Below are positions 23,841 through 55,230 of a stretch of DNA of 64,000 bases, in pieces. The notes beneath the pieces are model-generated. The model did no database searches and was not told where the DNA came from. It saw nothing but the letters and a program-made list of their open reading frames with translations. The stretch spans positions 434,001 to 498,000 of the forward strand of contig NZ_LNBY01000017.1 in assembly GCF_001542855.1 (NCBI RefSeq), read 5' to 3'. Origin of the DNA: Erythrobacter sp. AP23. GTDB taxonomy: Bacteria; Pseudomonadota; Alphaproteobacteria; Sphingomonadales; Sphingomonadaceae. The position numbers and the translations under genes were made by a program. Within the stretch, counting starts at the first letter, position 1. The number at the start of each line of letters is the position of its first letter.

Positions 23841-24620
23841 TCAGTGCAGCGCGCGGCGGGGGAAGAACAGGCTCGCCAGCCCGGACGCGCGGAACGGTTT
23901 CCATGTGCCTTCCGCCTGCGCCAGCCGGTCGGCGATGGCATAGACCGCCGCCGGATTCACGCCGAGGCCGCAGTGACTTGCCAGCACTTCGATGTTCTCG
24001 CATTCGGCATGGTCGCCGCATTGCACCGATCCGCGCCAATGAACCACGCCATCGGTCCGAGTGAGGATCGAGGTGGTGGGCACCGGCGGGGCCTCGGCCA
24101 GCTGGCGGAAATTGCCGTCCTGCATCGGTTCGGGCTCCTCGCCATTGAGGTATTCGAACAGCCGCCTTGCATTGGTGTGGCCGCGGTCGTCGCTGATCGG
24201 CGAGCCGAGGCTGATCACGCCGCGCACCTTCTCGGGCGCCATTTTGGCCAGTTCGCGCGCGAACACGCCGCCCAGGCTCCAGCCGACGATCGAGACTTTG
24301 CTCCCGGTGCGATCGTTAAGCTCCTCGACGCAGCCCATCATCGCTTCGATACGGGCGTTGTCGACGCGGACGTTGCGGCCCAGGTTCCAGCCGACCGCGT
24401 CATAGCCGAGGTCCGACAGCAGCGAACGCAGCGGCCGGGTCGAATAATCCGAGGCCATGAAGCCGGGCAGCACCAGCACGCCATGTCCGTCGCCGCGCGG
24501 CAGGCCGGACAGCAGCGGGCGCAGCGCGTAGAAACTGGCCAGTTCGCCCATCGCGCGTCCCGGTTCGGCCAGCGTCAGCAGGCGGCTGGGCGGGCGGGCT
24601 TCGATTGCTTGTGTCGTCAT
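23841..24620 (-). CDS. alpha/beta-fold hydrolase (lipase-like)
   Basis: A 259-residue alpha/beta hydrolase. HGVLVLPGFMASDYST gives the oxyanion-hole strand, GWSLGG the nucleophile elbow with the catalytic Ser, and ASHCGLGVNP the likely catalytic His. The ATG overlaps the stop of the wax-ester synthase gene (ATGA), so the two are translationally coupled. That pairing suggests a lipase or esterase acting on the neutral lipid made by its partner; the substrate is inferred only from position. Confidence 0.85.
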   Translation of the reverse strand: MTTQAIEARPPSRLLTLAEPGRAMGELASFYALRPLLSGLPRGDGHGVLVLPGFMASDYSTRPLRSLLSDLGYDAVGWNLGRNVRVDNARIEAMMGCVEELNDRTGSKVSIVGWSLGGVFARELAKMAPEKVRGVISLGSPISDDRGHTNARRLFEYLNGEEPEPMQDGNFRQLAEAPPVPTTSILTRTDGVVHWRGSVQCGDHAECENIEVLASHCGLGVNPAAVYAIADRLAQAEGTWKPFRASGLASLFFPRRALH

Positions 24621-26230
24621 TCTGTGGTCGGACCTTTCAGGGGATGGGCAGCCTTGGGCTTGGAACGCGCGCCGGAGGTCTTGGTGCCCCCTTTGACCGG
24701 TTCTGCGGGCTTTTTCTTGGGCGCTACCCGCTTCTTGGCGGCGGGCTTCTTCCCTCTCGTCTTGGTTGTGCGCTTCTTCGGTGCAGGTTTCTTCGCCGAT
24801 GTGCCGGTCTCCTTGGCGGCAGCATCGCGCAATTCCTCGAAGCTTTCGCGAATGCAGTCTGCGTAGAATTCGGGATCGTCCATCATCTCGCGGTCGGCGG
24901 TGAAGGCGATGGTCGCTTCCTCGGTATAGCTCTGCACCACATGCGCGAGGCCCATGCCGTCGGTCAGGCAAATCAGCCCCATCATGCTTTCCAGCCGCGC
25001 GCCGGCCGAATAGATCGGCACCGGCGGGCCGGGCACATTGGTCACCACCGTGGTGAAGATCGGGCCGACCCCGCGATTGGCGAGGCTGAGGCGGGTGTAG
25101 AGCTGCGCGCCGAGGCTCATCCACAGCGCCGGGCTGACCTTGCTCATCTCGGTCATGTTGCGCGCGCCCATGGCGTCGGTCATCGTCTTGGAATTGGTCG
25201 TGCGGTTGTTGACATATGCGAGGCGTTCGAGCGGGTCGGCGATATGCGTGCCCAGCGGCGCGATCATCGCGGCAACCTGGTTGCCCATCGCATTCTTCTC
25301 GCCCTTCGAGCGGACCGAGATCGGCGCCATGGCGGTGAGCGACTTCCTTGGCAGTTCGCCCTTGCTATCGAGATAGCGGCGCATCGCGCCGCCGATGATC
25401 GTCAGGAAGACATCGTTGACCTTCGCCCCCTCATGCGCAGTGCGGATCGCCTTGATATCGGCAAGCGGGACGCTGACGCCTTCGACCACGCGGTGCGGGC
25501 TGATCTTGCGATTGAAGCGTGTCTTGGGCGCGATCATCTCGGTCGAGACGTCGAATTCCTTCGCCGCGAGGCCCTTCAACGCCTTGGCGAGACCCGGCGC
25601 GGCCTTGGCGGCGACTTCGAGCTGCTTCAGCGGATTGGTGATCGCATTGAAATAGCTCTTGCCAAGCAGCTCGACCGGGTTGGGCACCTTTTCGGGTTTC
25701 CACTCGTCGGGGCCGGGTGGCGGCGGCTCGTCGGGCGAAAGCGTATGCGTCGCCTCCATCAGGTCGATCCCGCTCATCCCGTCGATCGCGGCGTGATGGA
25801 CCTTGGTGATATAGGCGTAGCTGCCCTTGGGCACGCCTTCGACATTGTCGAGCCCTTCGACCACGGTGAATTCCCACGGCGGGCGTTCGAGATCGAGCGG
25901 GCGGGCGAAGATGCGCGCCGCCTGGATGCACAATTGCCGCCAGTCGCCCGGCGCGGGCAGGGCGACGTGTCGCACGTGGTATTCGAGATCGAAATCGGGG
26001 TCCTCGATCCAATAGGGATAATCGAGGTCGAAGGGCACGCGCACCATGCGTTGGCGCATGGTCTTGGACAGCTGCAACCGGCTTTCGAAGAAGGCGAGGA
26101 TATCCTTGAACCGGACGAAGCCGCCTGGGGCGGTTGCCGGATTGTAGATCAGGATCGACCCGATATGCATCGGCGAGTTACGCGTTTCCAGCGCGACAAA
26201 GCTCGCATCCATGCCTTGGAGCTGCTGCAT
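24617..26230 (-). CDS. wax ester synthase/diacylglycerol acyltransferase with Lys-rich tail
   Basis: A 537-residue WS/DGAT enzyme that esterifies acyl-CoA to long-chain alcohols or diacylglycerol, making storage wax esters or triacylglycerol at the membrane. The condensing motif HHAAIDG is at His145-His146 and Asp150, and the second conserved motif VTNVPGPPVPIYSAGA is present. The end is unusual: from about residue 470 a 65-residue Lys/Pro/Ala/Thr-rich tail (for example KKPAPKKRTTKTRGKK) resembles a histone H1-like tail and is not part of the catalytic fold. It is coupled to a lipase-like gene by a 4-base overlap. Confidence 0.93.
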   Translation of the reverse strand: MQQLQGMDASFVALETRNSPMHIGSILIYNPATAPGGFVRFKDILAFFESRLQLSKTMRQRMVRVPFDLDYPYWIEDPDFDLEYHVRHVALPAPGDWRQLCIQAARIFARPLDLERPPWEFTVVEGLDNVEGVPKGSYAYITKVHHAAIDGMSGIDLMEATHTLSPDEPPPPGPDEWKPEKVPNPVELLGKSYFNAITNPLKQLEVAAKAAPGLAKALKGLAAKEFDVSTEMIAPKTRFNRKISPHRVVEGVSVPLADIKAIRTAHEGAKVNDVFLTIIGGAMRRYLDSKGELPRKSLTAMAPISVRSKGEKNAMGNQVAAMIAPLGTHIADPLERLAYVNNRTTNSKTMTDAMGARNMTEMSKVSPALWMSLGAQLYTRLSLANRGVGPIFTTVVTNVPGPPVPIYSAGARLESMMGLICLTDGMGLAHVVQSYTEEATIAFTADREMMDDPEFYADCIRESFEELRDAAAKETGTSAKKPAPKKRTTKTRGKKPAAKKRVAPKKKPAEPVKGGTKTSGARSKPKAAHPLKGPTTE

Positions 26231-47864: not shown

Positions 47865-48794
47865 CTAGTCCTCCCGCTTCACGCGTTTGCGCATCATGCC
47901 TTCCTGCGCGACGCTGGCGATCAGCTCGCCGTCGCGGTTGAAGATGCGGCCACGGTTGAAGCCGCGCCCGCCTCCGCTCCACGGAGCGTCGGTGGCGTAG
48001 AGCAGCCATTCGTCGGCGCGGGCCGGGCGGTGGAACCAGATCGCATGATCGAGGCTCGCGCCGACCAGCTCGCCGCGCATCCAGGACAGGCCGTGCGGCA
48101 GCGCGCTGGTGCCGAGCAGGGTGTAGTCGCTGGCATAGGCGATCACCGCGCGGTGGAGCGCCGGGTCGTCCTCGATCGCGGGCAGCGGCGCCGCGGTGCG
48201 AAACCAGCTGTGCGCCTTGGGCTCGCGCGGTTCGCTGTTCATCCAGTGCAGCCGGTCGACCGTGCGCATCTCGATCGGGCGCGGGCGCAGCACGAGGTTG
48301 CGCTGCTGCTCGCTCATCCGGTCGCCCGCACGCTCGACCATGGCCCGGCGCATCTCCATGTCGCTCTTGAGCTCTTCGGGCGGGGCGACGTCGGGCATGG
48401 TCACATCGTCGTGGCTCAGGCCCTCCTCGGGGCGCTGGAAACTGGCGGTGAGGTTGAGGATCGGGCGCTGGTTGCCGTCTTCCGCAGGCTGGCTCGCCAC
48501 CACGCGGCGATTGGCGAAGCTGCGTCCGTCGAAATCGCGCGCGGTGGTATAGGCGATGTCAACGCCCTCCTTGCCGCCGCGCAGGAAATAGGCGTGGAGC
48601 GAATGCGCCTCGAGCCCCTCGGGCGCGGTCGCCTGCGCCGCCTGCAAGGCCTGTGCGATGACCTGGCCGCCGAAGACGCGGCCCACGCCGCCCGGCTGCT
48701 GGGGCGCGGTGAAGGCGTCCTCGCCATTGCGGGTAACGGTCAGCAGGCGAACGAGGCCGGCGACAAGCTCTTCAGGTTTCTTTTCGATACTCAC
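47865..48794 (-). CDS. tesB: acyl-CoA thioesterase II
   Basis: A 309-residue double hot-dog thioesterase that hydrolyses acyl-CoA to free fatty acid and CoA in the cytoplasm. VFGGQVIAQALQAAQAT and LHAYFLRGGKEGVDI in the first half and the ASDYTLLGTSALPHG and SLDHAIWFHRPARADEWLLY block in the second are TesB signatures with the active-site Asp/Thr/Gln set. It uses a GTG start. It lies 21 bp downstream of the membrane-protein gene on the same strand, so it may be the last gene of the acyltransferase operon. Confidence 0.95.
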   Translation of the reverse strand: MSIEKKPEELVAGLVRLLTVTRNGEDAFTAPQQPGGVGRVFGGQVIAQALQAAQATAPEGLEAHSLHAYFLRGGKEGVDIAYTTARDFDGRSFANRRVVASQPAEDGNQRPILNLTASFQRPEEGLSHDDVTMPDVAPPEELKSDMEMRRAMVERAGDRMSEQQRNLVLRPRPIEMRTVDRLHWMNSEPREPKAHSWFRTAAPLPAIEDDPALHRAVIAYASDYTLLGTSALPHGLSWMRGELVGASLDHAIWFHRPARADEWLLYATDAPWSGGGRGFNRGRIFNRDGELIASVAQEGMMRKRVKRED

Positions 48795-48815
48795 CTGGCG
48801 AGCTTTGCGGGCGCT

Positions 48816-49853
48816 TTACGTTTGCGTCAAGCGTCCACCCGTGCGCCATTGCCGGAAAGCATAGGCGGCTAGGCCGAGGCACAGGAACAGCTCGCGATAT
48901 TCGGAGCTGTCGTACATCATCACCATGGTGTGGCCGAGAAGAAGGTGGAGCAGCTGGCCGAGCGCGACCCACAGCGCGAACACGCTCCACAGCGCCCGCT
49001 CGCGAGTGCTTGCCGCGCTTCGGGCGAAGGCGATGCAGGCGAACAGCCCGATCCAGAAGGCCGCCTGCACGGGTAGCAGCGTCCAGTGGCTGTAGGTGAA
49101 GACCAGCATCGGCGCGGAGATTGCGGCCACGGTGCGGTCCGGCAGGAAGGCGGCGAAAGGCCGGACGATAGGCAAGCGGACGAGTGCGCTTTCGCGAACC
49201 AGCGGGAGGAGCATCAGGAATAGGCCGGTGCCCGCATAGAGGACGAGTTCGGTGAGGTCGGTCTGGAAGTTGTGCAGGTTGAATTCGCCCTGCCAGTTGC
49301 GCGCTGCAATCTTCTCGGGCGTGTCGAAACCGATCTGGCGCTGGAACCAGCTCACCTCCTCGCCGCCCATGAGCAGGAACAGAAGGGCGAAACCTGCCGC
49401 GCCGAGCAGGTGAAGGCGGCGGAACGGGGTGGCGGGGTCCGTGCGACGCAGATCGAGGAACCGCATTGCCATGGCGGTGGCAGCGGCGAAAAGGAGCAGG
49501 GCGCTGAGCCATTCGATCGCGCTGTCTTCCGCCCCGACGCGGGCATAGGTTGCGGGGCTGGCGACAAGCAGTAGCGTGGCCGCCGCGGTAAGCGCTGCAA
49601 CCAGCCAGGCGAGCGTGAGAGCACCCGGGGAAAGCGGTTCGCCATGTCGGCGGGCGCGGGCAAGGGCGATGACAAGCGCGGCGCAGAGCACGGCGTTGAC
49701 GCTGCGGCGGAGCCAGTGCCAGCCGGTGTGCAGCGGGGCTTCCTCGCGCGCAAAGGGCCAGCCGAAGGCCAGCTGCTCATAGGCCATCATACCCAGCAGG
49801 AAGGCGGCAAGCAGGCCGATAGCGCCGAGGATTGCGAGGGTGGAGCGGGTCAT
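48816..49853 (-). CDS. polytopic membrane protein, unknown function
   Basis: A 345-residue inner-membrane protein with about eight to nine hydrophobic helices, starting MTRSTLAILGAIGLLAAFLLG. Between helices lies GGEEVSWFQRQIGFDTPEKIA followed by NLHNFQTD; this EE(V/I)SW...QR...TPE...N(L/V)HN pattern marks a widespread family of uncharacterised membrane proteins. Its acidic and His residues could bind metal, but nothing is proven. The ATG overlaps the stop of the upstream acyltransferase gene by four bases (ATGA). It is probably the membrane partner of the flanking acyltransferases. Confidence 0.75.
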   Translation of the reverse strand: MTRSTLAILGAIGLLAAFLLGMMAYEQLAFGWPFAREEAPLHTGWHWLRRSVNAVLCAALVIALARARRHGEPLSPGALTLAWLVAALTAAATLLLVASPATYARVGAEDSAIEWLSALLLFAAATAMAMRFLDLRRTDPATPFRRLHLLGAAGFALLFLLMGGEEVSWFQRQIGFDTPEKIAARNWQGEFNLHNFQTDLTELVLYAGTGLFLMLLPLVRESALVRLPIVRPFAAFLPDRTVAAISAPMLVFTYSHWTLLPVQAAFWIGLFACIAFARSAASTRERALWSVFALWVALGQLLHLLLGHTMVMMYDSSEYRELFLCLGLAAYAFRQWRTGGRLTQT

Positions 49854-50896
49854 TGTGGACGCTCCCACCAGCGGCGCAGGAGCATTGCCGGCAGCCGCCC
49901 GCGCACGAACAGCAAGTCTACCATCTCTGGGCCGGGCTGCGCGCCCATCTCGCCCTTGTAGCCGGCATCGCCGAGACCCCAGCTGATCCGGGCTATCCCG
50001 CGATCCGCTGCACGGGCGAAATCGTCGTAGAGCAGCACGCGGCCCGGACCGAACTTGGTGAACCGCTCGTCGAAATTGTTGGCGATGTAGTAGCGCGTAT
50101 CGCCCGCCTCGACGCCGAAAGTGAAGGCTGCAGGGACCTCGCCGATCCACATGAGGCTGCCGAACAGCATGTCGGCGAGCACGGGGTCGTCGCACAGCTC
50201 TTCCCAATAGCGGCGCCTGGCCGGATCGCGGAATTTGGTGTCGCCGCCATCGTCGAGCTTGCCGAGCCAGCTTGCCGCTTCGATCGCGGCCATCGCGTCG
50301 CGCTGATCTGCGGTCCAGTCGCTACCCGAGAAGACCTCGGTGCGTAGCGGTCCGCCATCCTCTTCCAGCCGCCGCTTACGCCAGCGGTTCTTGCGTTTGG
50401 TCTTGGACGAAGGCCAATCGCCCCCATCGCCAAGCGCTGCAAGGTCGAGTTCGAATACCTGCCCTAGCGGCCGGGAAAGCACCGTCCATCCTGCCTGACG
50501 AGCGGCGGCAAGCAAAGTTGCGAGCGCCGGATCAGCGTCTTCGGCCGGACCCAGCCGCCAGACGGCCCCGAGCCTCTGGCGTTCGGAGCGAAGTGCAGGC
50601 GCGAGCGTTTCGGCCGTTGCGTCCTCCGCAATCGGTATCCCCCGGAATGGCCAATAACACCCGCCGACCTCTCGCAGGCGCAATGGACCCTTGCGTCGTT
50701 CGGCGAGGGCGATCGCCGCCAATGGCGCACCCGTGGCGTCTCGCAGCACTAGGGTTTCATCAGGCGAGCGTGCGCCCGCAGTGAACCACCGGCTGCGCAG
50801 GAAAGAGCGATTCGACTGCCCGGATTGAGCCAGTGCATCGAACATGGCGGCATCGCAGGCCTGCTGGTCGCTTGGCACCATGGCCCCCATTATCAT
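49850..50896 (-). CDS. BioF2/CelD-type acyltransferase-like protein (second copy)
   Basis: A 348-residue GNAT-fold protein of the FemAB/CelD-like group (Acetyltransf_6). The C-terminal half shows the usual order: a basic KTKRKNRWRKRRLEEDGG segment, a long helix, SWLGKLDDGG, then the acyl-CoA-fold strands FGSLMWIGEVPAAFTFGVEAG and YYIANNFDERFTKFGPGRVLLYD. The N-terminal half is a diverged second copy of the fold. The start follows the JmjC-like stop with one base between (TGAAATG), and the stop overlaps the next gene. It probably transfers an acyl or aminoacyl group; the acceptor is unknown. Confidence 0.8.
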   Translation of the reverse strand: MIMGAMVPSDQQACDAAMFDALAQSGQSNRSFLRSRWFTAGARSPDETLVLRDATGAPLAAIALAERRKGPLRLREVGGCYWPFRGIPIAEDATAETLAPALRSERQRLGAVWRLGPAEDADPALATLLAAARQAGWTVLSRPLGQVFELDLAALGDGGDWPSSKTKRKNRWRKRRLEEDGGPLRTEVFSGSDWTADQRDAMAAIEAASWLGKLDDGGDTKFRDPARRRYWEELCDDPVLADMLFGSLMWIGEVPAAFTFGVEAGDTRYYIANNFDERFTKFGPGRVLLYDDFARAADRGIARISWGLGDAGYKGEMGAQPGPEMVDLLFVRGRLPAMLLRRWWERPQ

Positions 50897-50897
50897 T

Positions 50898-51776
50898 TCA
50901 TCCCGCGGTGCCGAAGGCCTTGCGCCAGGCCCGGAAGGCAAGAGATTTTGCACGGTTGCTCGCCGGCCACCGGCCCGGAGCGCGCGGATTGACGCCCAGC
51001 TTGCGAACGATGCCGTTGAAGCAGCGCGCGCCGGCTTCGGCATAGCTCCATTCGCTGCGCCATGTGATCGACAGCGAGATCGAGGGTTCCGATCCGTTGC
51101 GCACGAAATGGGGCGCCATGACGGGAACGTAAACGGCCTCGCCCGGCTCGATGGCGAAGGGAGTGCCACCGGCGAGCAAGCCATCGTGCCACGGAAGCTC
51201 GCGCGGGCCGCCGAGGTGGTAAGTCTCGTGAACGGTGTCCGGCGCATAGGCAGGATCGCCTGCGGGAAACTGCGTCATGACCTTGCTACCGCGCAATTGC
51301 AGCAGGATGTTGTGCTCGGGATCGAAATGATAGGGCGTGACCGCATTGGGGCTCGAGATGAAGACGAAGCCCTGTGGTGTCAGCATGTCGCCGGTCGTCG
51401 CCTCGATCGTCGGACGAAGCTCGTCGAGCAGGTCCATTAGCAGCGCCTGATATTGAGGCACCTGCTCGATATTCTTGAGCACCGCCCAGCTGTTGCTGGT
51501 CACGATATGGCGGATCGTTTCGCCGATGGTGAGGCCGTTGGCGTCGGGCTTGCCTTCGACCCCGACCGGCAGATCGCCACGATTGTATTCGATGGAGGCG
51601 GGCGGAAGCGCCTCACCCAGAGCGGCGAGCGCGTCCAGTGTCAGGCGCTCTTCCGCGCGAAGCCGATGGCGCAGGACATGTGGCGTTTCGGGATAATCGC
51701 GTGCGAAGGCGGCGCGCGATTCGGGTGGGAAGACCCGCGATGACCGGGCGGAAATCGAGCTATCGTGACGGGTCAT
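50898..51776 (-). CDS. JmjC/cupin-like Fe(II)-binding protein
   Basis: A 292-residue protein of the cupin_8/JmjC-like superfamily. The iron facial triad is visible: His150 and Asp152 in YHFDPEHN and His223 in APHFVRNG, with LLQLRGSKVMTQFP and VYVPVMAPH as the cupin strands around it. Related enzymes are 2-oxoglutarate-dependent hydroxylases of proteins, lipids or small molecules; whether 2-oxoglutarate is used here is inferred. It lies between two acyltransferase-like genes, coupled by a four-base overlap upstream and a one-base gap downstream, so it probably hydroxylates a shared substrate. Confidence 0.85.
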   Translation of the reverse strand: MTRHDSSISARSSRVFPPESRAAFARDYPETPHVLRHRLRAEERLTLDALAALGEALPPASIEYNRGDLPVGVEGKPDANGLTIGETIRHIVTSNSWAVLKNIEQVPQYQALLMDLLDELRPTIEATTGDMLTPQGFVFISSPNAVTPYHFDPEHNILLQLRGSKVMTQFPAGDPAYAPDTVHETYHLGGPRELPWHDGLLAGGTPFAIEPGEAVYVPVMAPHFVRNGSEPSISLSITWRSEWSYAEAGARCFNGIVRKLGVNPRAPGRWPASNRAKSLAFRAWRKAFGTAG

Positions 51777-52948
51777 GCGCGGGTTTCCATCCTGCGCAAT
51801 TCGATGGCGGAAAGGGCCGCGCCGACGCTCCGGCGGATCCGCCCCCCGATGCCGACCGACAGCATTGCGATCCGTCGCCGGTCCGGCCAGATCTGCCCGA
51901 TCATCGGATGGTCGGGCGTGGCGCAGCTATCAGACAGTTCGATGTCTTCGCGCTCCAGGACGGCGAGGTTCTCGACTTGCAGGAGCATTCCCGGCGAGAG
52001 CTTCGCCAGGTTCTCGTCATAGGCCGTCTTGAAACCGAAACAGAGCGGGGGTGCGACAAAAGAGCACAGCATTGCGACGGGCCTGTCGTCGAGATGGAAA
52101 GCAAGCCTCTCGAGGCGCCCCCGCGCGGCCGCGCCCGCAAGACTGTCGCGAAACAACGCTTCGGTGGTCGAATGGCTGGCCAGTGCGGATCCCTGCGCGC
52201 CCTTCCAGCCGGCTCTTTCCAGATCGAGAAATTCGTCGATCCACGCGACAAGATCATCGTCGCCTCGCTGGCGGGAGAAACGGAACGCTCCGGACTCTGC
52301 CAGGCGGCGGTGCTTGCGCTGCAATTCCTTGCGGCGCTTCTTGACGAGGGCTGATGCGAGATGTTCCTGCGGTGACAATCCCGCGCGCAAGGCGGCGCGT
52401 TCGATCCGTTGCACGACCTTCACGCTGCGACCCGATTCCCTGCCGATTTCGTGCAGCGTGCGATAGGCGGTACCGTCGCAGGGAAGGTTCGCCAGGTGGA
52501 GAAACAGGCTCGTGCGGCCATGGCGATCGCACCAGCCGAGCATCCCATCCCAGAACCTGCGCGAATGTCGCTGCACCACCAAAGGCTCGCCACAAAAGGC
52601 ATTGGCGTGCAGCCAGTTGGCGAGATGGGGCAGGGCCGTTCCGTGATAATTGCCGTCACGCCGGATCGGCATCAGACCGACGAGTTCCCCGTCGACCACG
52701 AGCGTGGCCAGGTTGACCTCGGCCTTGGGATCGAACTGGCGCAGGGACGGTTCGAGAAACCACTGCTCGAAAAACGGATTGGGAGTGGCGCATGTCGTGG
52801 CAAGCTCATCCCAGTGCGTCGTGAAGCTCCTGCCGACGACCTCAGGCCATGGAGCTACAGTGAACCCCTCCTCCAGCTCCGCGCACGCACGGCCCTGCAC
52901 GTGCGCGCCGTGCCATCGATTGCCGACAAGTTCCTCTATGCGCGTCAT
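51773..52948 (-). CDS. BioF2/CelD-type acyltransferase-like protein (first copy)
   Basis: A 391-residue GNAT-fold protein of the CelD/BioF2-like (Acetyltransf_6) group. Residues from about 190 read KKRRKELQRKHRRLAESG, DEFLDLERAGWKGAQGSAL and then ARGRLERLAFHLDDRPVAMLCSF with FGFKTAYDENLAKLSPGMLLQ, the classic family order. The ATG at 52948 has a GGAGTGGGG ribosome site; a TTG fifteen bases upstream is possible. It opens the operon and overlaps the JmjC-like gene by four bases. Despite the shared fold, the two acyltransferase copies are not obviously recent duplicates. Substrate unknown. Confidence 0.85.
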   Translation of the reverse strand: MTRIEELVGNRWHGAHVQGRACAELEEGFTVAPWPEVVGRSFTTHWDELATTCATPNPFFEQWFLEPSLRQFDPKAEVNLATLVVDGELVGLMPIRRDGNYHGTALPHLANWLHANAFCGEPLVVQRHSRRFWDGMLGWCDRHGRTSLFLHLANLPCDGTAYRTLHEIGRESGRSVKVVQRIERAALRAGLSPQEHLASALVKKRRKELQRKHRRLAESGAFRFSRQRGDDDLVAWIDEFLDLERAGWKGAQGSALASHSTTEALFRDSLAGAAARGRLERLAFHLDDRPVAMLCSFVAPPLCFGFKTAYDENLAKLSPGMLLQVENLAVLEREDIELSDSCATPDHPMIGQIWPDRRRIAMLSVGIGGRIRRSVGAALSAIELRRMETRA

Positions 52949-53073: not shown

Positions 53074-55230
53074 TCAGCCGGCTGCAAGCGCCGCGAGCAA
53101 AAGCAGCGCCACGATATTGGTGATCTTGATCATCGGATTCACAGCCGGACCCGCGGTGTCCTTGTAAGGATCACCCACGGTGTCGCCGGTTACCGCGGCC
53201 TTGTGGGCTTCGGAACCCTTACCGCCGTGATTGCCGTCTTCGATGTACTTCTTCGCATTGTCCCACGCGCCGCCGCCCGCGGTCATCGACAGCGCGACGA
53301 AGATCCCGCCGATGATCACGCCGAGCAGCAATGCGCCCACGGCGGCGAAGGCATTTTCCTGACCCGCAAGGAAGAGGATCGCGAAATAGACCACGATGGG
53401 TGCCAGAAGCGGCAGCATCGAGGGCAGGATCATTTCCTTGATCGCAGCCTTGGTCACGAGGTCCACGGTCTTGGCATAGTTCGGCTTGGAAGTGCCGGCC
53501 ATGATGCCCGCATCGGCAGCGAACTGCTCGCGCACATCGACCACCACGTCACCGGCAGCGCGGCCCACGGCGGTCATGCCCATCGCACCGAACAGATACG
53601 GGAGCAGCGCACCGAGCAGCAGGCCGACGATGACGTATGGGTTCTCGAGGCTGAAATCGACATCGGCATCGGGGAACAGCTTCGCCAGGTCGGTCGTGTA
53701 GGCTGCGAAGAGCACCAGCGCGCCGAGTCCCGCCGAACCGATGGCATAGCCCTTGGTCACGGCCTTGGTCGTATTGCCGACCGCGTCGAGCATGTCTGTC
53801 TTCTCGCGAACGCTGTCGTCGAGACCGGCCATTTCGGCAATGCCACCCGCATTGTCCGTCACCGGGCCGTAGGCATCGAGCGCCACGACCATGCCCGCGA
53901 GCGCCAGCATGGCGGTCGCCGCATAGGCGATGCCCATGAGGCCGGCGAGCTGGAAGGTGCCGATGATGCCTGCCACGATCACGAGGGTGGGCAGCGCAGT
54001 CGATTCAAGGCTGATGGCCAGCCCCTGGATCACATTGGTGCCATGGCCCGTTTCCGAACTCTTGGCGATCGAGCGCACCGGACGATAGTTCGTGCCGGTG
54101 TAATACTCGGTGATCCAGATGATGAGGCCGGTGATGGCGAGCCCGATGACCGAGCACAGGAACAGGTCCATGCCGGTGAAGCCGACGACCTGTTCGGCCG
54201 TGCCTTCTTCCGCCAGCGGAGCCCCAGGATCAATGCCCGCGACAGCGCCGCCGATCTCCGTACCCATACCGCCCAGCGCATAGCTGATGACGAAATAGAT
54301 CAGCGGGATGGCGAGGACCGCGGAGACGATGAAGCCCTTGTACATCGCGCCCATCACATTGGTGCCGCCCTTGCCGAGCTTGACGAAGTAGGTGCCGATG
54401 ATGCTGGTCAGGATGCATGCACCGCCGATCAGCAGCGGAAGGGCCATCATGGGCATAAGCAGGTCGCCCAAAACTTCGCTGAAGAGCAGCGCGGTCAAGA
54501 CCATGGTCACGCCGACGGTCACCACATAGGTCTCGAACAGGTCGGCGGCCATGCCGGCACAGTCGCCCACATTGTCGCCGACATTGTCCGCGATGACAGC
54601 GGGGTTGCGCGGATCGTCTTCGGGAATGCCTGCCTCGACCTTGCCGACCAGGTCGGCGCCGACGTCGGCGGCTTTGGTGAAGATGCCGCCGCCAAGACGC
54701 GCAAAGATCGAGATCAGCGATGCACCGAAGGCGAGACCGACGAGGCCGTAGACCACTGCGTCGCTATCGGCGGCAAAGCCGGCCGGACCGACGAGATACC
54801 AGAAGAAGACCGCAATAGAGAGCAGGGCGAGACCTGCCACGAGCAAGCCGGTGATGGCGCCTGCGCGGAAGGCGAGGGTGAGCCCCTGCTGCAGCCCGCT
54901 CTGCGCGGCGGCGGCCGTGCGAACGTTCGAGCGCACCGAGATGTTCATTCCGATGAAGCCCGCGACGCCCGACAGGATCGCACCGATGACGAAGCCGATG
55001 GCCGGTACGATGCCGAGGAAGACGTATACGAGCACCGCGACGACGATGCCGACGAAACCGATCGTCGTATACTGCCGCTTGAGATAGGCCTGCGCGCCTT
55101 CCTGAATGGCGCCGGCGATTTCCTGCATCTTTTCGTTGCCAGCACCCGATTTGAGCACCTGGCGGCTGGTGACGAAGCCGTACAGTACGGCCAGCAGTCC
55201 CAGCAAAATTGCTATGAGAACAAGGTCCAC
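53074..55230 (-). CDS. hppA: membrane-bound proton-pumping pyrophosphatase, potassium-independent
   Basis: A 718-residue protein with about 16 membrane helices that couples pyrophosphate hydrolysis to proton export. The Mg-PPi site motifs are present ([34 protein letters not shown], and the third acidic cluster near the end, [14 protein letters not shown]). At the position that decides cation use it has GNTTKA with Lys489, as in the potassium-independent class, rather than GNTTAA. The start is GTG. It follows thiL on the same strand across 154 bp and has its own terminator. Confidence 0.97.

Follow-up and report, generated by a model that had tools for sequence, protein, structure and literature searches.

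Do five consecutive genes on the minus strand of a 64,000-nucleotide stretch of Erythrobacter sp. AP23 DNA (contig NZ_LNBY01000017.1, positions 434,001 to 498,000; hereafter the window) work in one pathway, and what would that pathway modify? They encode two GNAT-family acyltransferases (here ATa and ATb), a JmjC-like oxygenase (JMJ), a membrane protein (MEM) and a tesB-like thioesterase, and an initial annotation had proposed that together they could assemble and hydroxylate an N-acylated lipid or envelope molecule. The counts presented here show that ATa and JMJ are inherited as a module and that the remaining genes are local. As judged from sequence comparisons, this two-enzyme module would modify a surface polysaccharide, most likely the exosortase A (XrtA)/PEP-CTERM exopolysaccharide (EPS) of the cell; we give this reading a probability of about 0.5.

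The distribution of the two genes was determined in 199 genomes of the family, matches being accepted for JMJ at E values up to 1e-10 and for ATa, with profile A2, up to 1e-30. JMJ was present in 95 genomes and ATa in 94: 93 had both genes, one had ATa only, two had JMJ only and 103 had neither. Moreover, 96 of 98 ATa sites were at most 300 bp from a JMJ. Among the exceptions, the JMJ match in genome G026 is partial and contains an in-frame stop, and the assembly of G193 is split into about 210 contigs. Viewed from the other gene, 8 of 105 JMJ matches had no ATa inside 300 bp, namely five second copies (one being the JMJ paralogue of the window's own genome), two broken or partial genes, and the match in G014. 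We also followed the genes in 80 named loci (from Qipengyuania, Erythrobacter, Altererythrobacter, Porphyrobacter, Novosphingobium and others), which are the best 80 of 539 matching stretches, were found through JMJ and lean to close relatives; ATa adjoins JMJ in all 80. A further 40 loci were mapped separately. In conclusion, because of the co-presence and adjacency counts in the 199 genomes, this nearly obligate pair is an inherited module; to this extent the proposal that the genes act together holds.

JMJ passes the Cupin_8 model PF13621 narrowly (cut-off 27.4 bits; Table 1), and its catalytic residues are intact. The iron triad His150, Asp152 and His223 (HxD...H), which the initial annotation had correctly picked out, and Lys165 did not vary in any of 20 aligned homologues (a set that includes the JMJ of the window), in 57 of 57 mostly closer sequences, or in any of 23 sequences drawn from the family and from other orders. 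Comparison of a JMJ profile with the PDB gave matches to JMJD5 (1.1e-8), to C2orf60 (1.3e-5), which we take to be the tRNA hydroxylase TYW5, and to FIH (best 1.2e-4). In the printed JMJD5 alignments both His residues, the Asp and the Lys of JMJ are in register, and Lys165 fits the position of the 2-oxoglutarate-binding lysine of FIH, which sits 15 residues past the first His. JMJ shares with JMJD5, FIH and the Cupin_8 hydroxylases the HxD...K...H core and a C-terminal half aligned by the profile; it differs from JMJD5 and FIH in about 130 unmatched N-terminal profile positions, in being bacterial and in being paired with a GNAT. Since the four residues are kept and the profile matches JMJD5 and FIH, JMJ is very probably an active Fe(II)/2-oxoglutarate hydroxylase.

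Both ATa and ATb exceed the cut-off of the Acetyltransf_6 model PF13480 (22 bits). The initial annotation had named the enzyme classes correctly, FemAB-like acyl transfer by a GNAT and a JmjC-like hydroxylase. The sole match in an NCBIfam scan of ATa was the BspF crotonyltransferase model NF047385, which aligns with residues 42-386 at 148 bits, far below its 775-bit cut-off; BspF and ATa have only the GNAT superfamily in common. A PDB sequence search with profile A2 returned no meaningful match. Values of dN/dS of 0.13-0.29 for ATa, JMJ, ATb and MEM (against four relatives, or three for MEM, with dS partly saturated) indicate that purifying selection keeps all four genes as proteins.

The presence of JMJ follows that of exosortase A. 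XrtA was found over its cut-off in 129 of the 199 family genomes, and it was present in 91 of 95 genomes with JMJ versus 38 of 104 without (Fisher 2e-20, ancestry not corrected). Flagellin, which is likewise patchy (133 of 199), was not associated with JMJ (p=0.37), a thin yardstick as it is one control gene only. On a different contig, the genome to which the window belongs carries an XrtA cluster in which an amidotransferase, exosortase A, a glycosyltransferase, FemAB, a deacetylase, chain-length and export proteins, a decarboxylase and an acyl-CoA ligase were each recognised over the curated cut-off; an acyl carrier protein (ACP) and a further PF13480 GNAT are encoded nearby. The XrtA/PEP-CTERM system (TIGR03109, 03108, 03013, 03019, 03098, 03099) is therefore present in the same cell, XrtA clusters here also carry PF13480 GNATs, and JMJ lies inside or beside such a system in three loci (L051, L219 and L220). 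In Aquincola, floc formation and bound exopolysaccharide have been linked to a PEP-CTERM gene (PMC9850573).

Association of JMJ with a GNAT extends beyond the family. With profile A1, homologues were detected in 16 of 385 genomes (class-wide) and 35 of 398 (phylum-wide), the own family being counted in both. Outside the family there were 42 distinct JMJ sites, 35 of which came with flanks; at 24 of these 35 a GNAT gene neighbours JMJ, on the same strand in 23 cases and on the opposite strand in one. Some of the sequences behind the GNAT profile used for this count are themselves among the neighbours counted; in a separate Pfam scan, ten of the neighbouring GNATs were all over the PF13480 cut-off. 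We estimate the chance that a random gene has a PF13480 neighbour at well under 1%, because the window's genome has 9 PF13480 matches, 7 of them above the cut-off. Four loci (L214, L221, L225 and L230) were handled by six-frame searches, L221 also by longest ORFs (open reading frames). In L214 (G472:C93:46074-47822) a tandem pair of JMJ genes was observed, and the six-frame search of this 17-kb stretch found no GNAT.

In some relatives, the pair is found in or next to clusters for EPS synthesis. The clearest case among the 20 distant neighbourhoods fetched (five of them, L214, L225, L229, L230 and L231, read in part) is L215:5473-8142 (G658:C1), where one 889-amino acid ORF consists of a Wzx/MATE-type flippase domain (PF01943, 34.4 bits for a cut-off of 28.2) followed by a PF13480 GNAT; JMJ comes after the fused ORF, in the same direction and with a 4-base overlap. 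This fusion was found in one genome. The same order, wzx-type gene, GNAT, JMJ, occurs with separate genes in L212, near a Poly_export gene, and in L213, near Wzz-like and deacetylase genes. L213 (G506:C1:1252000-1269000) is a polysaccharide cluster in which a flippase gene is surrounded by two JMJ and three GNAT genes. A wzx-type gene also adjoins the pair in L050, L063, L074 and L228 (in the latter next to JMJ), and in L227 a flippase gene below the Pfam cut-off is next to the pair, together with Wzz-like and Wzy_C proteins. Genes of the XrtA system adjoin the pair in L051 (TIGR03108 and XrtA) and L074 (TIGR03100), while Wzy_C and glycosyltransferase genes are near it in L058. In two loci that belong to another class of the phylum, JMJ is beside TIGR03013 (L220, a glycosyltransferase gene over cut-off) or one gene away from TIGR03013, TIGR03027 and TIGR03007 (L219, glycosyltransferase, export and chain-length genes, each over cut-off). 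The JMJ region of L221 contains a UDP-sugar dehydrogenase and an adenylation-carrier protein. A polysaccharide deacetylase-like label, given by eye to neighbours in L050, L053, L070, L071 and L074, was not relied on; those of L053, L070 and L071 had no Pfam match at 0.001, and that of L053 had no NCBIfam match.

A GNAT with a role comparable to the one proposed here is HfsK of Caulobacter. HfsK is reported to be needed for a cohesive holdfast, many of its orthologues, in strains of different phyla, cluster with EPS genes, and there is indirect evidence for modification of the polysaccharide (PMC5362036); a second report describes HfsK as a putative N-acyltransferase acting on lipid-linked or polymerised substrates, downstream of glycosyltransferases (PMC6372794). 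HfsK also has a C-terminal tail that binds cyclic di-GMP. The likeness to ATa, compared by description, lies in the GNAT family; as a difference, a hydroxylase partner is not mentioned for HfsK in the available part of PMC5362036. EPS gene context is absent for the pair in the window and present in a minority of its relatives.

We propose that ATa, as is thought for HfsK, would move an acyl or aminoacyl group onto an amino sugar of the repeat unit. This transfer would take place in the cytoplasm, on the lipid-linked unit, ahead of export by the Wzx flippase; the Wzx-GNAT fusion of L215 suggests that ATa acts on a lipid-linked unit at the inner membrane face. With Fe(II), O2 and 2-oxoglutarate, JMJ would hydroxylate this acyl or aminoacyl group, either ahead of the transfer or once it has taken place. 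ATb and MEM might perform a second acylation. We infer the acceptor, the donor, the order of the steps and the service of the window's pair to the XrtA polymer. A broader formulation, which we advance more tentatively, is that a widespread cassette of a GNAT and a JmjC hydroxylase puts a hydroxylated N-acyl or aminoacyl group on lipid-linked repeat units immediately ahead of Wzx flipping, in XrtA/PEP-CTERM-associated as well as other exopolysaccharides.

Several observations weigh against a dedicated role in EPS modification. First, the pair of the window lies between hppA and tesB, outside any EPS cluster and on a different contig from the XrtA genes, and NCBIfam scans of ATa, JMJ, ATb and MEM matched no XrtA-associated curated model. 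Second, EPS genes were present in only 8 of the 20 distant neighbourhoods: the printed genes of L216-L218, L222-L224 and L226 included no recognised EPS genes, and in L222 and L223 the pair is near ribosomal protein genes. Within the family, among 40 loci fetched, 21 were at hppA, 5 at paralogue sites and 14 elsewhere, and EPS or XrtA neighbours were detected by scan in a minority of the latter (6 of 14: L050, L051, L053, L058, L063 and L074). Third, a neighbouring GNAT is missing at 11 of the 35 distant JMJ sites, among them L219 and L220, both beside XrtA genes; two of the 11 (L177 and L184) are close to contig ends. Finally, shared ancestry may in part be behind the association of JMJ with XrtA. 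XrtA occurs without JMJ in 38 genomes, and JMJ without XrtA in four (G070, G117, G135 and G172). As G172 is 99% complete in 3 contigs, XrtA cannot be the sole partner of JMJ.

Three other functions were weighed. It is unlikely that the pair makes a hydroxylated N-acyl lipid, such as a sphingolipid or other aminolipid whose amide-linked fatty acid is 2-hydroxylated. Sphingomonads carry 2-hydroxymyristate in glycosphingolipids and ATa, JMJ and tesB are neighbours in the window, in agreement with such a role; however, 2-hydroxymyristate is thought to be general in the family, whereas the pair is absent from 103 of the 199 genomes. The bacterial ceramide synthase CerS (CC_1154) is described, like the proposed ATa, as an amide-forming N-acyltransferase, and ceramide-gene orthologues are reported in Sphingomonas wittichii (PMC11324152). 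Nevertheless, no sphingolipid gene (spt, acpR, cerR or aasR) was recognised beside the pair when neighbours were read by eye, with no family scan for them, and CerS may instead be another GNAT, encoded at G000:C6:20125 next to RidA- and GDPD-like genes (by eye). The EPS contexts of the pair also argue against a lipid product. Of the product first proposed for this locus, the N-acylated lipid finds no support in gene context, while the more general envelope molecule broadly fits, the contexts being those of exopolysaccharide.

A peptide-like product is less likely still: in this reading the substrate of JMJ would be one of its amino acids or acyl groups, bound to a carrier, which the GNAT would attach, with polysaccharide as only one of several acceptors. 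Two condensation-adenylation-carrier modules are present in the JMJ region of L234, which adjoins L220, and the single adenylation-carrier protein of L221 is similarly placed, in both cases with no adjacent GNAT; in addition, the XrtA cluster of the window's genome encodes a decarboxylase, an ACP and an acyl-CoA ligase of a kind close to adenylation domains. Against this, non-ribosomal peptide synthetases (NRPSs) were not recognised in the other loci read by eye, where no dedicated NRPS scan was made. In L234/L220 and in L221 sugar-nucleotide genes were observed alongside the NRPS-type modules.

The least likely of the three is protein modification, with JMJ hydroxylating a translation factor or a ribosomal protein and the GNAT as the protein acyltransferase that goes with it. 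The best solved matches of JMJ (JMJD5, C2orf60, FIH) would suit this function, as JMJD5, FIH and TYW5 act on proteins or tRNA. By eye, several consecutive ribosomal protein genes begin one gene downstream of the pair in L222 and L223 (which could hint at a protein substrate there and counts against a polysaccharide one), a tuf-like gene is in the L223 region and a lepA-like gene is beside the pair of L056, but PF13480 GNATs are not of the Rim type, and the Wzx fusion, the XrtA neighbours and the restriction of the pair to a subset of genomes tracking XrtA argue against it.

The role of the remaining genes was assessed in the 80 named loci. The five ORFs are present on one strand with the couplings that the initial annotation had listed (Table 1): ATa and JMJ overlap by 4 bases (51773-51776), JMJ and ATb are separated by 1 base, ATb and MEM overlap by 4 bases, and MEM and the tesB-like gene are 21 bases apart. 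A simple gene caller placed the start of ATb at an internal start codon. A conserved four-gene block had been named as support for a system; in the 80 loci, found through JMJ, ATb is present in 14 and MEM in 6, every MEM locus also carrying ATb, and all four genes coexist in 6 of 80. The four-gene operon was rejected on this count as the conserved unit, and a five-gene one is not supported either; ATb and MEM are lineage-restricted additions. In L053, a PF13480 GNAT likewise immediately follows JMJ. The tesB gene was found in 74 and hppA in 73 of the 80 loci, and most tesB loci lack ATb and MEM. In the other settings mapped, tesB is not beside the pair, and the pair also occurs without hppA. 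Since both genes persist where ATb and MEM are absent, hppA is a flanking neighbour outside the module and tesB is probably one also, and the place given to tesB in the pathway was abandoned.

Table 1. Position and assignment of the ORFs of the locus (window coordinates)
Feature	Coordinates	Strand	Length	Assignment	Pfam score	Status
ATa	51773..52948	-	391 aa	PF13480 GNAT acyltransferase	90.8 bits	leads conserved pair
JMJ	50898..51776	-	292 aa	JmjC/Cupin_8-like Fe(II)/2-oxoglutarate dioxygenase	28.9 bits (Cupin_8)	conserved pair
ATb	49850..50896	-	348 aa	second PF13480 GNAT	70.5 bits	accessory
MEM	48816..49853	-	345 aa	membrane protein, GEEVSWFQ and NLHN		accessory
tesB-like	47865..48794	-		acyl-CoA thioesterase	115 bits (PF02551)	flanking
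hppA-like	53074..55230	-		proton-pumping pyrophosphatase (named by eye)		usual upstream neighbour, outside module

MEM has 7 hydrophobic stretches; its best Pfam match had an E value of 0.34, none was over cut-off, and an NCBIfam scan gave no match. The tesB-like protein scores well in Pfam, yet is below the TIGR00189 equivalog cut-off (233 versus 292.85). A MEM paralogue, 56% identical and with the motifs GEEISWGQ and TLHN, is encoded elsewhere in the same genome, in region L055 (G000:C1:91000-108000). It lies a few genes from the second JMJ, which is 35% identical to the first, has no ATa beside it and is flanked by rnd-like and aspS-like genes; relatives of two genes of the window thus recur together in one other region. 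Gene sizes had suggested that L055 is a sphingolipid cluster, an idea that was discarded as the sequences are, by eye, acpP-, fabF-, mltG-, aspS- and rnd-like. On the minus strand of the window, an ORF at 24617-26230 resembles, by eye, a wax ester synthase/diacylglycerol acyltransferase.

No description of a GNAT-JMJ pair was found in the open-licence literature, and to our knowledge neither the polymer of exosortase-A (PEP-CTERM) clusters nor the role of their acyl-handling genes has been resolved. If the proposed role of the pair in polysaccharide modification is correct, a JmjC-type oxygenase would take part in surface polysaccharide tailoring, which would extend the JmjC/2-oxoglutarate oxygenases to surface polysaccharides. 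Roughly half of the 199 genomes of the family carry the pair, which also occurs in other orders, and our proposal predicts that such bacteria would carry a hydroxylated N-acyl sugar.

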